Shown here: in pieces, positions 9,001-14,534 of the stretch
How positions within the stretch are numbered: position 1 is the stretch's first letter
How the letters are laid out: each line of letters opens with the position of its first letter
Assembly: GCA_009784945.1 (NCBI GenBank)
Contig: WQXH01000003.1
Location: 1 to 64,000, forward strand
Length of the DNA: 64,000 bases
DNA from: Coriobacteriia bacterium
GTDB lineage: Bacteria > Actinomycetota > Coriobacteriia > Coriobacteriales > UBA8131
Reading direction: 5' to 3'
Notes under the pieces: generated by a model
Told to the model about the DNA's origin: nothing
Database searches by the model: none
Seen by the model: the letters and a program-made list of their open reading frames with translations, nothing else
Made by a program: the position numbers and the translations under genes

Positions 9001-9907
9001 TACCATCAGTTCCATCAATCGCGCTCAGTGCTGCAACAGTGCTTTTGGGCGCATCAGCATTTGCCGTATTAAGTACATATTCAAAGACAAAGCTTTCAAG
9101 ATCTACTAAAACGATGTCTGCTGGTCTGCCTCCAGGATTATTGCCCTCACCGATAATCTGTCCTCCCCAAACAAAGTATTGCATGAAGCTAGGGGGAGTG
9201 CCAACCTGGTGGGTGGCCTTTGCTCGCACCGTATAGACTTGATGGGGGGCTGGGCTGTTGCCCTCAGGGCTGCCCCTAAATGAAAAACTCCATACCTGTC
9301 CGTTTGCGCTGCCCTGCGAACGCTCTTCAGAGTATTCAAACAGGAGATTATAATTGCCAGTAGGCACACCATTAACAAGCAGTTCAAGTTCAAACGCCGC
9401 AACAGAAACGCCATAGAGGGTAACAAAGCCCTGGGCAACAACCGCATCGCCTGATTGAGAGCCTTGCTGATTTGTGTCTGTTAGTGAGGAGGCTTCACTG
9501 GCATCTTCATCAAAGATAGCATTTGGTGATCCGTCTGATTCCTGAGTAGCTCCTTGGGCACCTTCTTCACTGGCAACCTCATTTGATTCGCCAGACTGCG
9601 TGGGCGCTTCTTGGGTGTGCTCTTCTGAGACAGCCTCTGCTATTGAGTCTGTTTGCAAAGGAGCTTCCTGAGCAGCTTCTTCGTAAGCAGCCTCTGTTGG
9701 TTCGTCTGATTGCTCTGACTCAGAGGCAGGCAGTGTGCTGCTTTCCTCTTCAAGCGCAATGCTTTCATTGCTCAAAGGGTCGATAGCTACGCTGCCATAG
9801 GCAAAGGCGCCTGTTGGCACCAGCTGAAATGTCAGTAGGCCCGCCAAGAGCATGGCAAAAAATCGTTTTGTACGATGGTGAGTTCTTCTTTTCTTAAGGT
9901 TCTTCAT
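2..9907 (-). CDS. Giant Cna B-type repeat surface protein (adhesin/pilin-like), N-terminal ~3300 aa; C-terminus lies beyond the left window edge
   Basis: Reading the minus strand from ATG at 9907 gives MKNLKKRRTHHRTKRFFAMLLAGLLTFQLVPTGAFA (signal peptide), an acidic Ser/Glu-rich segment, then many repeats with K-x-W-x-D...RP openings and YxVxE closings (e.g. LTIHKSWDDEDNRDGVRPASISFTI, ITVKKNWEDAGNQDGLRPESVIFGL, YEVEELSL). The frame is still open at position 2, which explains why the ORF track omits it. Confidence 0.88.
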   Translation of the reverse strand, partial: MKNLKKRRTHHRTKRFFAMLLAGLLTFQLVPTGAFAYGSVAIDPLSNESIALEEESSTLPASESEQSDEPTEAAYEEAAQEAPLQTDSIAEAVSEEHTQEAPTQSGESNEVASEEGAQGATQESDGSPNAIFDEDASEASSLTDTNQQGSQSGDAVVAQGFVTLYGVSVAAFELELLVNGVPTGNYNLLFEYSEERSQGSANGQVWSFSFRGSPEGNSPAPHQVYTVRAKATHQVGTPPSFMQYFVWGGQIIGEGNNPGGRPADIVLVDLESFVFEYVLNTANADAPKSTVAALSAIDGTDGSFTISQKYIALESGSQFSVTEELPSYHPLTGNKITYAAQITDNDAGYVVHYQNTEPNADTFDKVFSGGTIINSPLSAEVDVTEDDAPEADAPEAALASETKEESDKVLAEDNEVTNDESSESGGFFAAISDFFSSLFGITTDEQPDSEPELESETGFSLVTKDTIDLDISILWQDDSNSAGKRPASNQVAIGLTYSLDGGLSFRELTQEVLKNWGVEQTFTGILPREEDSRAWSYSYKGLPETLLTYQWAKGQEELDGEIVSVESNRLVSSTPITYAFEQIVSLESFSEDYSTELLTSNQEALIAINTLIAYEPLAAGEPIDEPLDGPLAIDEPFALAQPLAEPLAFQSFNEISPMNDDVDYIYVGGKLNLMGLDLATFQSQYTIELYENGVLLSGATAILNGPLGTYSFGELPTVDASGQLEYTVRVAKTIYNALDTKQFYYSGGVLVGDGSTPLLVPVDITLVSLVDFHATYVIDADPDNEGEIPSGTPAGVKVELSTLEAAHSGYLPTTTTTILGPLSKEVSFKDLLSHNPETGEEIIYRVQIIEDNAPGYEVSYTNVAEGFEEETGYAYTGGTITNTYVEKLTVGFTAGTDYIFTINWIDNDGADGHRPLPADVDIEIYFTLEGEDEPRLLTPEVLSEWAELGIDIGPTLTNTGRIWRYDFSLPASFNKVNEYGELVESLKLSYTFAQVIDDPVFKQHYLTEQTGPLSVNNTLNVVYTAEIAWKDALNKNNTRLGEDDIKPNLMLYRIYTEGANTHEEVVGLLSELGDMVQIDTSGANWQLEISGLPHFHPNHLLYTYYVKAVDSTMDLAEYNSLPNDSSAEYASSYRNKGNFVQNSQAAYEGGTILFTLSDTANFNMTKVWQDDGTETRPGGTLTLYRYPDVPGRSFTTAIPVSGLSMPLASYPSGGEYSIDFSTLASYPKDGLPRFDNEGNEYIYFVREVLSGAGTDNYSQIFSYPEGMSGLGGSVLYNGGTLQNRRIGTVEQTVNKTWYAQAVPSMDASVTIVAERKISGTDGAWEEASSQTMSGFGAATTQQSCSFSLPEYSEEGLLYEYRFREASVTVNGATVDLGAEELEAGNDSQEYSIAPFSYRATYTTNSNGDVFISNSLIGQTEVYVRKIWTDNNPQNLTLYINSDRAASVSKPFTTEQQALEGFYYLGSFDRFDQMGRIIRYDITEATPAANQETAPLGYSVGYTNNRTTDTDINGVEYGILQTTITNTPIVNTSDARYVIAQKVWADDGDEACRGNVVVQLYAKDKVKGDETGEWEWTGNWTLVQGATATLTYGNDWRAWIRIDDYARTTWGATSGSQALYSDFMLREVSMVSEGTTYAVDFLDPTITALVPGASSMPMGTVTTNEHSYSSWAQLNSDGRNYTFRNVREGTVNIDLAKTWIDDDHHTVVSQALTIEITRRQANSTEESLYQTIILDGTEDKPWTKRLEGLPKYDTNGVLYYYYAYETAITETETGTVHPLGRGGSSYELDDRHLYTVSSEERRIYGEHMPGLTAPQPDEYSFGFTNQRSETINFVAYKIWRDVLRTDGTDESASENALRQRPDFYFQLFQYADGMETPLDVQANWTTSGDDFNDYAWQCIYDGLPRYDEGGKEIIYYVKEIMDYPGEYESTYFNSGEPYNSTLLSDNLQELTVPSLEAVAPGVTMYKSTGFETSDGYIHFGGSVENLRVGERRMSGQKVWKNVPAGISGSDLPSVNLQLKVYTWDDPLGDFLYSATGEAVVTLERNKRDFIFVDANQNVVSLDKYDRYGVFIRYMAVEVIQEGNEDNYVEIIGGPDGNVTAGYLEPSYDSFTMTVTNSYKTIDDLTDDDLVSVSVNKDWVNMRQDLSPGLYPRASIELWRVATDEDGNDLVGSGLIGAELVDASWVKVVEGGSFANPQQITYDPNGLGQSIVFSGLPKYAYNGNPFRYFVMEAPLAGYEASVQEDDAASQGNSFAYTIVNTYTGIDEESVSITGSKIWSDQSNGFSTRPGAPEFEGSFKVYRQAEGHGASLEDITSAVTLDWNMSAQNTWTFEIHTRQDGVGISSQMTGAEQSGGLYRYAHDGSSYLYYVVELPTSRSYHYTSVISANGGSSALIGAGELPLGSLVAKTRSISDTAEWASFTNTLRTSSVSTTKSWLTQEFEGLISGPINLLQLEMLLPSEIIFGVEYYDAAAEAWLPLMETVGEISSQKQTRIPKSQLITILRGASSNVMTVLINNLPLYGSSASDTRAYRLVETSINGVPVPWHATQPVDAQGQFVVSGNGSGAISNTLETIPLTIHKSWDDEDNRDGVRPASISFTIVDDADVTRRIAVVMTPDRNPITVQVPRYNAQNKLAEYTVTESFVIPNTGFIARYELFDSNGNLRGSLNSSGAITGSLSLPDPGLDASSAPLAKEYEFTNRHVPRTINVSATKQRWDDLYINQSFGSSEVRNIRPTSIYFTLQWFQGNRWEVVPSHILDGQAAIVEMKPEDEYDTGWFWATTWNDLPARMNDGTTNASMERIRYRVIETAKSPLDPSNIDYLAERVIGYSAGYRDAAVGGSYSASNMPIWVDDTSCNASNTARIQISNLMDSTSILIQKRWLGLDGVEYAEIPPSVTVLLQYRLEQAGQAEENPWLDAIRTVTISGSSDEHIWNGVIEYLPVVNNQGVRYEYKIKEIKIGDVDVVESEAGIEAVGYIVVNGNDVGTTSTPAFVSNTFQSHGSITVKKNWEDAGNQDGLRPESVIFGLSRVVGTTKELLDTVPVSAEDSWSHTWANLPQYRLDGSEAVYEVEELSLGNNADVQGIIERIDRYTAEYNYTDTSGALIENSSDPAQVKVNNSAPARIFVDNHYTPLVMDLRPTKSWIDFDNAYGLQPESVQVKISAKVDGATVPMTELMGLDFVDTLTLDASGSWNQAWTDLPVYWDNGTEVVYTVTEIGSSGLDTAFHGYNPPGYSYSAGGYGIARSNGVGGNIDDKPNTEASVTVSNEIETIDVPVRKVLNTEGGSFFDLPSEVSFELYQRPVDST

Positions 9908-10349: not shown

Positions 10350-10643
10350 ATGAAAGCAACTGACACCATACGGATCAGGATAGAGCCGACTCTCAAACAG
10401 AAGCTTCAGAGCCGCTGTGACGATAGGGGTATCACACTCTCCCATCTTATTCGAGACTTTTTGACTACTGAGGCTAATCGCCCGGTCACAGCAGCAGAGC
10501 GCTTTGACGCGATTATGGCGAGTGCCGCCAGTAAAACTGGAACAACCGGTCTCAATGAGCCAACCATTGATGACATAAACGATTATATTGACTCAATACG
10601 CGAGCAGCGCCTTGAAGCCATTAATCTTAGCAGGAGTGCTTAA
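10350..10643 (+). CDS. RelB/DinJ-like ribbon-helix-helix antitoxin
   Basis: N-terminus MKATDTIRIRIEPTLKQKLQSRCDDRGITLSHLIRDFL is RHH-like; immediately followed by a PIN-domain ORF. Confidence 0.75.
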   Translation: MKATDTIRIRIEPTLKQKLQSRCDDRGITLSHLIRDFLTTEANRPVTAAERFDAIMASAASKTGTTGLNEPTIDDINDYIDSIREQRLEAINLSRSA

Positions 10644-11066
10644 GTGCTGGATGTCATCATCGATACCAACGTTTTGGCTGCTGCTTTGCTTAGACCAGAA
10701 GGCTCAAACGCAAAAGCGTTAAGAGAAATACTGGCAGACTCTGATCGATTCAACCCCTGCTACAGTTCTGTGATTATTGCTGAATACGAAGATGCTTTAT
10801 CGCGGCCACTCTTTACCGGTCGAGGTCTTGGTACAGAAGCCCTCCAGCTCTTGGAACTCATAAAAGAGCTCGGCGAAGAAGTTATCCCTAAGCCTGTCTA
10901 TGCAGCGGTATATCCAGACCGCACTGACAGGCCTTTCTTGGAGGCTGCCGTGTATGTCAATGGTCTACTGTTAACCAATAATCTCAAGGTTTTTCCTTTT
11001 GCTGATGTAACGGTCATGGCGCCTGAAGCGTTTCTCGACTGGCTAAAGACTCAGGCTGCAAAGTGA
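10644..11066 (+). CDS. PIN-domain toxin (putative TA toxin, PIN family)
   Basis: MLDVIIDTNVLAAALLRPEG...SSVIIAEYEDALSRP...; GTG start abutting the antitoxin stop. Confidence 0.8.
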   Translation: MLDVIIDTNVLAAALLRPEGSNAKALREILADSDRFNPCYSSVIIAEYEDALSRPLFTGRGLGTEALQLLELIKELGEEVIPKPVYAAVYPDRTDRPFLEAAVYVNGLLLTNNLKVFPFADVTVMAPEAFLDWLKTQAAK

Positions 11067-11375: not shown

Positions 11376-11446
11376 CGTCATTGCGGGCTTGACCCGCAAT
11401 CCGAGACGCATTTTGGTTAGATTGCGGCTCGGAGGCCGCAATGACG
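11376..11446. repeat. 71-bp REP-like palindromic element (CGTCATTGCGG...CCGCAATGACG)
   Basis: Terminal inverted repeats; the reverse-complement relative occurs at 53064..53134. Confidence 0.75.
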
Positions 11447-11509
11447 GACTACAGTCTGACTAGTGACCATGGGTCGCTTTGCTCACACCTGGTTTGCTAT
11501 TACAGTGGA

Positions 11510-11552
11510 TTTTGCATCCATAATCGAATATAATGCGATTATGGATGCAAAA
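11510..11552 (+). promoter_or_regulatory. Perfect 17-bp inverted repeat bracketing TATAAT; candidate AbiEi operator/promoter
   Basis: TTTTGCATCCATAATCG-AATATAATG-CGATTATGGATGCAAAA read directly; the right arm contains the ATG at 11541. Confidence 0.8.
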
Positions 11553-12182
11553 TTGGCTACGATAGCGTCGGTTCCCGTTGAGTTTGACTTACTAAGGTCG
11601 CTCTACAGCGAGTACGCTTCGCCCAAGGATAAGATCGTACGCTTAGCCTCAGACGGACAACTGATTCGTCTCAAGAAGGGCTTGTACACTGTCTCGCCTA
11701 AGCAGGCACTACGAGCTGCTCCTTTGGGGCTCATCGCAAACCGGCTCTATGGTCCATCGTACGTCTCAATGGAAACAGCACTTTACTTATATCAAATGAC
11801 TCCAGAGCGCGTATATGAAACGCGCTCTCTTACTATTAAGCGCAGCAAGCTATTTGAAAACGATCTAGGTAGGTTTAGATACTCTCATATGGAGGCAGGT
11901 TACTTTTCTCTTGGAATTGATGTGTTTGAAAGTGAAGAAGAAAGATTTTTGATTGCCTCGCCAACAAAGGCGCTTTGTGACATGATTGTCTTAAGCCGAA
12001 ACCTTCGCATACAATCTCAAGGGGCAATGCGAGCATTCCTTGAAAACGACCTCAGGGTAGATTTCGAGCAAGTAGGTTCACTCGATGAAGCTGTTTTTGA
12101 TGCAATACTCGACACGGGAATTAAGCATCGGGAGATGCGTCTATTGAAGGAGTACTGCAGCAATGCCTTTGACACTGTTTGA
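11541..12182 (+). CDS. AbiEi-family type IV TA antitoxin / transcriptional regulator
   Basis: MDAKLATIASVPVEFDLLRSLYSEYASPKDKIVRLASDGQLIRLKKGLYTV (wHTH); followed by an AbiEii-like nucleotidyltransferase. The track extends this ORF to 11463; the internal ATG at 11541 is preferred. Confidence 0.8.
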   Translation: MDAKLATIASVPVEFDLLRSLYSEYASPKDKIVRLASDGQLIRLKKGLYTVSPKQALRAAPLGLIANRLYGPSYVSMETALYLYQMTPERVYETRSLTIKRSKLFENDLGRFRYSHMEAGYFSLGIDVFESEEERFLIASPTKALCDMIVLSRNLRIQSQGAMRAFLENDLRVDFEQVGSLDEAVFDAILDTGIKHREMRLLKEYCSNAFDTV

Positions 12183-13005
12183 TAAAATGCTCAAAAGCTA
12201 CGATACCAGTAGTGATGAAGCTCGCCTTGCTAGCACACGCGAGGTCATGCAAAAGTTTGCGCTGGCAGGATTACACAGGGGGGGCTTTTTTGAATCAGCT
12301 GCCTTTTATGGTGGCACAGCTTTACGACTTCTCTTTGACCTGGATAGGGCGTCTGAGGATATGGACTTCTCTCTCTTGGCTCCTTGTGAGGAGTTTTCTC
12401 TTCAGCCCTACTTTGCCGCTCTGCTAGAAGAATTTGCGCTGTCTGGGCGCGAAGTCAGCATTGTAGAAAAGAAAAAGACTGCACTCACTGCCATCGACTC
12501 GGCATTTCTCAAGGACACAACAAGGCACTTTGACCTTAAGGGAAACTTGATGCCCACAGTAAGAATCAAAATTGAGGTTGACACTTCGCCTCCGCCAGAG
12601 TTTAAGACCGAACATCAGCTTTGCATGCTGCCCTATTCCTTCATGGTCAGAAGCTATACATTACCTTCGTCATTTGCCGGCAAGATGAGCGCAGTGTTGT
12701 ATCGTGGATGGGCTAACAGGGTAAAAGGTAGAGACTGGTATGACTTTGAGTGGTATGTGAGGAAGGGCATAGCCATGAACCTCCAGCACTTTAGCGCTCG
12801 AGCAAGGCAAATTAACAAACTGGATGCAGATCTAACCGAGCAGGGCTTTAGGGATTTACTCGACTGCAAGATTGCCTCAACAGACTTTGATAAAGCGCGT
12901 TTAGATGTAAGCCCTTTTATCGCCGATGCAAGTAAGCTGGAAATATGGAACGCAGACTACTACTATCAAGTTGCCAGCAAGATGAAGCTTATTGCTAATG
13001 AATAG
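12163..13005 (+). CDS. AbiEii-family nucleotidyltransferase toxin
   Basis: FYGGTALRLLFDLDRASEDMDFSLL (GGTALR...S.DhDF nucleotidyltransferase signature); overlaps the AbiEi end. Confidence 0.88.
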   Translation: MPLTLFDKMLKSYDTSSDEARLASTREVMQKFALAGLHRGGFFESAAFYGGTALRLLFDLDRASEDMDFSLLAPCEEFSLQPYFAALLEEFALSGREVSIVEKKKTALTAIDSAFLKDTTRHFDLKGNLMPTVRIKIEVDTSPPPEFKTEHQLCMLPYSFMVRSYTLPSSFAGKMSAVLYRGWANRVKGRDWYDFEWYVRKGIAMNLQHFSARARQINKLDADLTEQGFRDLLDCKIASTDFDKARLDVSPFIADASKLEIWNADYYYQVASKMKLIANE

Positions 13006-13133: not shown

Positions 13134-14534
13134 ATGACTGAAGTATTGACAATAGAATCTATGGCCTACCATGGGGCTGGTATTGCTCGAACAGCCGAGG
13201 GTAAGGTTGTATTTGTAGAAGGGGCAATTGCGGGAGACATGGTAAGGCCGCTGGAGCTACAAAGCTTGCCTCAGTATGACAAGTGCGTGAGCCATGAGTT
13301 GATGGAGCCTTCTGCTGCTCGTGTGCCAGCACCTTGTAGTTATGCTCGCGAATGTGGTGGCTGCCCGTGGCAGGCAATGAGCTATGAGGAGCAGCTGCGC
13401 TGGAAGCGAGGCTTTGTGGTAGATGCCCTGGAGCGTATTGGCAAGGTTGCAAACAGCAACGAGCTGGTTGCAGCATGCGAGCCCTCTCCTTCAAAGTGGC
13501 ACTATCGTAATAAAGTGGAGCTCGATGTATTTAGGCAAAAAGGCAAGTTCTGCCTGGGTCTGCACAAAAAGAACAGTCACGAACACATAGCGCTGGAGGA
13601 ATGTCTGCTATTGCCTCAGGCGCAAAGGCAGCTTCCTGCTCATTTGGCGGGCGCGCTCAACTACAGTTTAAAGGAGGAGCAAGACAAGCTGGTGCGAGTG
13701 GCGCTGCGCAGCTCCCGTACCACTGGTTCATCAGAGCTGGCGCTGTACATGCTTCCCTCTGGTGTCAACCGCTCGCTGCTCGTCAAGACGCTCAATAATA
13801 GCAGGGCATTTAATAGTCTAGTGAGAGTCATTGTAGAAGACGGGAAGCTAGTCGAGCGCAAGGTCAAGAAGGTCGAAGTGCTCGACGGAGCAGGCTATTG
13901 GCACGAGGAGCTGGCGGGCAATCACCTGAAGATAAGTGCCCCTTCATTCTTTCAGCCCAATAGTGCGGTGGCCGAAGCCATGATTGCTCACCTTGTTCGG
14001 ACTGTGGATCAGCTCAGCTTAGGCAAAGACTCCCCAGTAGCCGATCTGTATTGCGGCGCTGGCACTTTTACCCTACCTTTGGCAAAGCGTTTTAGAAAGG
14101 TGTATGCCATAGAGAGCTATGGCTCTTCCATTCGCGACTTGAGGCGCAATCTTGAAGAGGTGGGTCTCAGCGCAAGGGTGGAGGCCATAGGAGGTGACGT
14201 TGCGCGAGAGCTCGCTACGCTTGAGCCTTTGACCTTGGCAGTTGTTGATCCACCTCGCAGTGGGCTTAAGCCTGAGGCTCGTCGCGCCTTGCTTGAGGCA
14301 CGCCCCGAACACCTCATCTATGTATCGTGCAACCCGGTCACCATGGCTCGCGACCTTGGCAACTTGTGCAAGGAGTATGAAATACTCAGTGTTGCGCCCT
14401 TTGATCAGTTTCCACAGAGTTATCATGTAGAGACGATGACAGTGTTAAGAGTTAAGAATTGCCCGCATCGCCCTGCACGTTCGGTCAAGCCAAATGGTGC
14501 AGGATCAAGCGAGGAGTTACATAATCAACAATGA
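13134..14534 (+). CDS. rlmD: TRAM-domain 23S rRNA (uracil-5-)-methyltransferase, RlmD/RumA family
   Basis: TRAM-like N-terminus; CGGCPWQAMSYEEQLRWK; VADLYCGAGTFTLPLA; VVDPPRSGL; IYVSCNPVTMARDL. Confidence 0.88.
   Translation: MTEVLTIESMAYHGAGIARTAEGKVVFVEGAIAGDMVRPLELQSLPQYDKCVSHELMEPSAARVPAPCSYARECGGCPWQAMSYEEQLRWKRGFVVDALERIGKVANSNELVAACEPSPSKWHYRNKVELDVFRQKGKFCLGLHKKNSHEHIALEECLLLPQAQRQLPAHLAGALNYSLKEEQDKLVRVALRSSRTTGSSELALYMLPSGVNRSLLVKTLNNSRAFNSLVRVIVEDGKLVERKVKKVEVLDGAGYWHEELAGNHLKISAPSFFQPNSAVAEAMIAHLVRTVDQLSLGKDSPVADLYCGAGTFTLPLAKRFRKVYAIESYGSSIRDLRRNLEEVGLSARVEAIGGDVARELATLEPLTLAVVDPPRSGLKPEARRALLEARPEHLIYVSCNPVTMARDLGNLCKEYEILSVAPFDQFPQSYHVETMTVLRVKNCPHRPARSVKPNGAGSSEELHNQQ

Follow-up and report, generated by a model that had tools for sequence, protein, structure and literature searches.

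A perfect palindrome spanning the −10 element and start codon of abiEi in a Coriobacteriia bacterium, a probable AbiE operator with a predicted leaderless start

INTRODUCTION

AbiE is a widespread phage-defense toxin-antitoxin system. In S. agalactiae, the antitoxin AbiEi autorepresses its operon through two 23-bp inverted repeats with a 3-bp spacer and a −10 element, TAAAAT, at the dyad; the protein binds these repeats in electrophoretic mobility shift assays (EMSA), and the repeats are required for repression (PMC3985639, PMC7319586). Transcription of S. agalactiae abiE begins 26 bp upstream of the ATG, and the mRNA carries a ribosome binding site (PMC3985639); this promoter, with its conventional leader, is the only one mapped in the AbiE literature cited here (PMC3985639, PMC7319586). 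The Rv2827c-Rv2826c promoter of M. tuberculosis is similar in that an AbiEi-family antitoxin acts on inverted repeats that straddle the promoter and end just before the start codon, but there are four repeats, separated by 13-bp gaps, and none of them enters the reading frame (PMC7319586). Of two AbiEi-family proteins, neither binds the repeats of the other (PMC7319586).

Leaderless autorepressor genes whose operator overlaps their own promoter near the ATG include acuR of Rhodobacter (PMC3017554), nreA of Mesorhizobium (PMC12724321), paaR2 of E. coli O157 (PMC8630535), and lambda cI. Unlike AbiEi, these repressors belong to the TetR, CsoR/RcnR, and phage-type families, and the operators of acuR and nreA are placed in the promoter and not in coding sequence (PMC3017554, PMC12724321). 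In M. tuberculosis, a genome-wide mapping study of one genus found leaderless transcripts to be enriched in toxin-antitoxin modules (32 of 37 gene pairs); the passages considered here do not describe an overlap of operator and start codon in AbiE (PMC3898074). Within the AbiE report PMC7319586, the word “leaderless” occurs solely in references. Operators over promoters and leaderless autorepressors are each known, and their combination in AbiE would be a new variation on these. Here we analyze an abiE locus in a 64,000-nucleotide stretch of a Coriobacteriia bacterium genome (the window), where an earlier note, made from the sequence alone, had pointed out a palindrome at the abiEi start codon.

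RESULTS

The window encodes a bicistronic abiE operon on the forward strand. The first gene, abiEi (11541 to 12182), encodes a 213-amino-acid predicted antitoxin and autorepressor (PADLOC AbiEi, 9.2e-65). The NCBIfam model TAA_AbiEi matched its product below the curated cut-off (2.3e-07), and no Pfam match for AbiEi was found, but an alignment of its relatives gave a profile match to the solved S. agalactiae AbiEi structure (PDB 6y8q). The nearest protein relatives in the genomes searched are 39 to 45% identical. An AlphaFold model from the AbiEi single sequence had a pLDDT of 37.6, too low for fold comparison. The second gene, abiEii (12163 to 13005), overlaps the first by 20 nt and encodes a nucleotidyltransferase toxin (Pfam AbiEii PF08843, 9.8e-29; PADLOC AbiEii, 8.1e-102), for which a phmmer search of the PDB returned no match. 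A Shine-Dalgarno (SD)-like motif, AAGGAG (12147 to 12152, forward strand), lies 10 nt 5′ of the abiEii ATG. The locus therefore has the gene content of a type IV AbiE system, an AbiEi-family antitoxin followed by an adjacent, overlapping AbiEii. We found no relative of the window AbiEi protein in viral contigs and none of the L047 protein in phages.

Two other elements lie upstream of the operon. Positions 10350 to 11066 encode a small RHH-looking protein with no family match, followed by a PIN_3 domain protein, and together they resemble a toxin-antitoxin pair. Just 5′ of the abiE promoter is a repetitive palindromic element (11376 to 11446; CGTCATTGCGGGCTTGACCCG...), whose core is found unchanged at least 21 times in 1.22 Mb of the genome.

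The palindrome at the abiEi start is a perfect inverted repeat of 18 bp per arm (left arm, 11509 to 11526; right arm, 11536 to 11553; forward strand) with a 9-nt loop. The earlier note had described arms of 17 bp. Its sequence and coordinates were exact when the letters were re-read (TTTTGCATCCATAATCG, 11510 to 11526; AATATAATG, 11527 to 11535; CGATTATGGATGCAAAA, 11536 to 11552), and only the arm length needed correction, because A11509 pairs with T11553. Also confirmed were the placement of TATAAT in the loop (11529 to 11534) and of the abiEi ATG 6 nt farther on, in the right arm. That arm holds the ATG (11541 to 11543), codons 1 to 4, and the first base of codon 5, and it follows directly from the sequence that the proposed operator also encodes the antitoxin N terminus, MDAKL, as the earlier note had stated. 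With one mismatch allowed, the arms match at 20 of 21 positions around a 3-nt center, and a weaker, imperfect symmetry extends to 34-nt arms at 79%.

Such a palindrome is far above chance: when the 64-kb window was simulated 30 times with a first-order Markov model, the longest perfect arm (loop of 0 to 12) was 12 bp. As a DNA hairpin, it had a z-score of −7.6, and none of 200 shuffled sequences was equally stable. It is present in a single copy in the 2.27-Mb assembly. Across 1.22 Mb of the genome, the remaining long inverted repeats are recurring sequences and look like repeated or mobile elements. One family, based on GGTGACAAGGGGACGGGGCGTTTGTCACCTT, consists of very long, perfect repeats with arms of up to 73 bp (L119, 14340 to 14488; L080, 10579 to 10724; and others), and the core word of this family, GACAAGGGGACGGGGC, occurs 28 times in 1.22 Mb. 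The core of the abiEi palindrome, GCATCCATAAT...ATTATGGATGC, was also found at 9052 to 9083 of L009, a cyanophage-like viral contig (IMGVR_UViG_3300013093_000614), where it lies between two phage genes. We rejected this copy as abiE related, given that no abiE gene is found there; it is presumably a coincidence or an unrelated element.

The TATAAT in the loop is the candidate −10 element, and its third base, 11531, is the dyad axis. It is separated from the abiEi ATG by 6 nt (TATAAT-N6-ATG). No SD-like motif was found 5′ of ATG 11541. We surveyed TATAAT-like hexamers before the candidate ATGs of 892 long open reading frames in 1.22 Mb of this genome and found a single peak exactly at −12 from the ATG (27 hexamers versus about 5 to 6 per offset, with 12 at the next highest offset). 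Nearly all starts in this peak are ATG, with one further case of GTG, and the set includes abiEi itself and the genes starting at window positions 13134 (RlmD) and 29149. We conclude from this peak that leaderless genes are a real class in this organism, in which they appear to be common. The start codon at 11541 to 11543 on the forward strand, which belongs to this set, would then also be the transcription start.

Other members of the −12 set, which was drawn from L067 to L126 and the window, include a large SMC-like gene (L103, minus strand, start 12386) and a DNA polymerase III alpha subunit-like gene (L105, minus strand, start 11842). Five paralogues of 316 to 333 amino acids that begin M(E/S)xxxSHxSALxYWR are likewise all leaderless by this hexamer test (L089, 6024, minus; L117, 1371, plus; L123, 6251, plus; and L126, 6178, plus, and 19560, minus); some have a weak C-terminal match to an MTES_1575/DUF559 nuclease-like domain. 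At abiEi, no good −35 hexamer was present at the right distance, and a consensus scan reported no promoter there. The first 50 nt of the predicted mRNA were not unusually unstructured (z-score, 0.43).

The palindrome also fits the published S. agalactiae operator. In a 23-3-23 frame (geometry from PMC3985639 and PMC7319586), the proposed AbiEi half-sites on the forward strand are IR1 (11507 to 11529) and IR2 (11533 to 11555, running into abiEi codon 5), which are symmetric at 20 of 23 positions around a 3-nt center. According to the published accounts (PMC3985639; Hampton 2018 via PMC7319586), S. agalactiae AbiE shares with the window the overlapping AbiEi and AbiEii genes, the 23-3-23 repeats, and a −10 element at the dyad. 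There, AbiEi autorepresses by acting on both repeats, and in the window the same function is predicted by homology. The two loci differ at the start: S. agalactiae has a leader with a ribosome binding site, whereas the window has its ATG within the right repeat and, by prediction, a leaderless mRNA. Because of the match to this published geometry, together with the homology of the protein and the position of the promoter, the palindrome is very probably the operator through which AbiEi represses its own operon.

We drew abiEi relatives from whole genomes of the same order, class, and phylum and from plasmids, and their start codons were assigned via protein homology or annotation. Two large groups were found, an SD group of 14 loci and an SD-less group of 24 loci, with an SD motif before 14 of 14 starts in the first and 0 of 24 in the second. 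Most loci of the SD group have a dyad on the −10 element, with gtataat or tgtataatg in the loop. An unbiased palindrome search placed this dyad exactly 23.0 nt before the ATG in most of them, and the right arm mostly ends near or at the ATG, with the SD motif in or beside it. Proteins of the SD-less group begin MKxxELL, and their genes share a dyad 17.5 nt before the ATG, which is the best-scoring palindrome in about half of the loci; there, the −10 element lies within the right arm and ends 6 nt before the ATG. The window has its dyad at −10.0, which puts the ATG at dyad +10, inside the operator, and its dyad-to-minus-10 register is that of the SD group with the SD leader missing.

The picture drawn in the earlier note is accordingly not universal, as the SD group keeps the operator-promoter register and has a leader with an SD. 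The notion that all relatives are leaderless was rejected, since 14 loci have an SD in or beside the right arm. The clearest natural example of the SD type is upstream of abiEi in L054, where a TTGACA-N17-TAAAAT consensus promoter has its −10 element in the loop of a 12-bp palindrome, with GGAGG in or beside the right arm. No clear palindrome of the window’s kind was seen in L004 and L005, which are among the nearest relatives, and neither register pattern was clear in other AbiEi subfamilies (L053, L057 to L062, and L066). On plasmids of Sulfurospirillum and Arcobacter, abiEi has a −10-N6/N7-ATG arrangement, and several Sphingobium-type plasmids have a likely −10 element about 7 nt before the abiEi ATG, as read by eye; one Sphingomonas abiEi locus has an SD-like GAGGA. 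Plasmids of Phocaeicola and Bergeyella carry what we take to be a Bacteroidota-type promoter element within a few nucleotides of the abiEi ATG.

Arm symmetry in these relatives was scored with the dyad position fixed from the ATG alone, using 11 loci of the SD group and 24 of the SD-less group; loci within a group are related, and the covariation counts are therefore not independent events. At −23.0, 156 of 220 arm pairs in the SD group were complementary, compared with 43 to 76 at neighboring half-step offsets. Swapping arms between loci gave 128.6 ± 6.3 complementary pairs, and 0 of 2,000 swaps reached 156. For the SD-less group at −17.5, the count was 297 of 480, versus 106 to 157 at other offsets and 267.5 ± 6.5 in arm swaps (0 of 2,000 reaching 297). 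When the window and three SD-group loci placed by their own dyads were added, 262 of 375 pairs were complementary, compared with 193 ± 10 in swaps. From locus to locus the arm sequences diverge, yet each pair keeps its symmetry, which fits what an autorepressor would require of its operator. Conservation of the window arm sequence itself was rejected, because what is preserved across loci is geometry and symmetry only, and the arms vary.

These results bear out two claims of the earlier note. The proposal of an operator for AbiEi autorepression is supported by the protein assignment, the published 23-3-23 geometry with the −10 element at the dyad, and the arm covariation. Leaderless expression of abiEi is well supported computationally by the TATAAT-N6-ATG spacing, the lack of an SD that the note had also reported, the genome-wide −12 peak, the SD-less relatives, and the plasmids of other phyla.

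We weighed two other translation starts. The palindrome could be the AbiEi operator while a transcript with a short leader is translated from TTG 11553 (codon 5), behind the degenerate SD GGATG. This TTG is at dyad +22, near +23, where SD-group loci have their ATG, and the weak GGATG shortly 5′ of it aligns with the GGAGG of L015. We consider such a start improbable, given that ATG 11541 has ideal −10 spacing for a leaderless start, that the SD motifs found in 14 of 14 SD-group loci are missing from the window, and that in the homologues L006 (MDRQLTEIGTIP) and L003 (MDGLDEL) the start is level with ATG 11541 or upstream of it. Alternatively, transcription could come from upstream and the protein begin at GTG 11463 (or ATG 11469), making the palindrome internal to the frame, which is indeed open as far as GTG 11463; the earlier note mentions an annotation track with that start. 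No relative shares the resulting N-terminal extension, and 11463 is not the conserved start because in-frame stops close the L004 and L005 frames directly upstream of the ATG homologous to 11541. Moreover, no SD precedes 11463, and the sole promoter-like match upstream of abiEi is at chance level, so that we regard this reading as very improbable.

The palindrome could also act through something other than AbiEi, or as RNA. Because a second toxin-antitoxin-like pair lies just upstream, at 10350 to 11066, the operator might be bound mainly by a product of that pair or by a host factor. Against this, the symmetric operator recurs before abiEi in many genomes, and in S. agalactiae the repressor has been proven to be AbiEi; we judge another main regulator to be highly improbable. 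A hairpin that is very stable on either strand might instead function in RNA read through from the upstream genes, where it could terminate or attenuate transcription or mark a site of RNA processing. The terminator or attenuator reading was rejected, as the palindrome has no T-run and no terminator-like match, and relatives in the same register have a promoter in the loop and an SD or ATG in the right arm. With the −10 element in the loop, the left arm lies upstream of the predicted transcription start and would never be part of a transcript from the abiEi promoter; that mRNA would therefore contain no hairpin, which favors a role at the DNA level and makes an RNA role scarcely credible.

DISCUSSION

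Based on these comparisons, we think it likely, with considerable confidence, that the palindrome serves a type IV AbiE operon as its autoregulatory operator, that transcription starts at A11541 and is leaderless, and that the right half-site combines operator, start, and codons 1 to 5. Two AbiEi molecules on the two half-sites would flank the −10 element and cover it from both sides, and RNA polymerase could then not load; by homology, repressor and polymerase may be competing for the same 43 bp. Once repression is relieved, transcription would begin at A11541, which is also the A of the abiEi ATG, and the mRNA would therefore be leaderless and translated from its 5′-terminal AUG. The right half-site would thus be operator, transcription start, start codon, and codons 1 to 5 in one, and the toxin gene, whose 5′ end overlaps abiEi, would use its own SD. 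A leader is possible in principle, because SD-group relatives with the same operator register have one.

Relatives in several phyla appear to keep variants of this compact operator-promoter-start switch. A tentative idea is that AbiEi genes across phyla follow one general design rule, in which leaderless initiation is fixed in register with the operator; we hold this to be possible but rather doubtful. If it is true, promoter, operator, and start codon would fit in about 45 bp with no need for an SD, and a mobile module could express its antitoxin in hosts with differing translation signals, the toxin meanwhile keeping SD-dependent or coupled translation. If many abiEi genes are leaderless with a fixed operator, antitoxin and toxin synthesis would respond differently to changes in ribosomes or initiation factors, and one short stretch of bases would be under constraint in four roles, those of DNA-binding site, promoter, start codon, and protein sequence. 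A fixed dyad-to-start register would also offer a simple way of predicting AbiEi operators from sequence.
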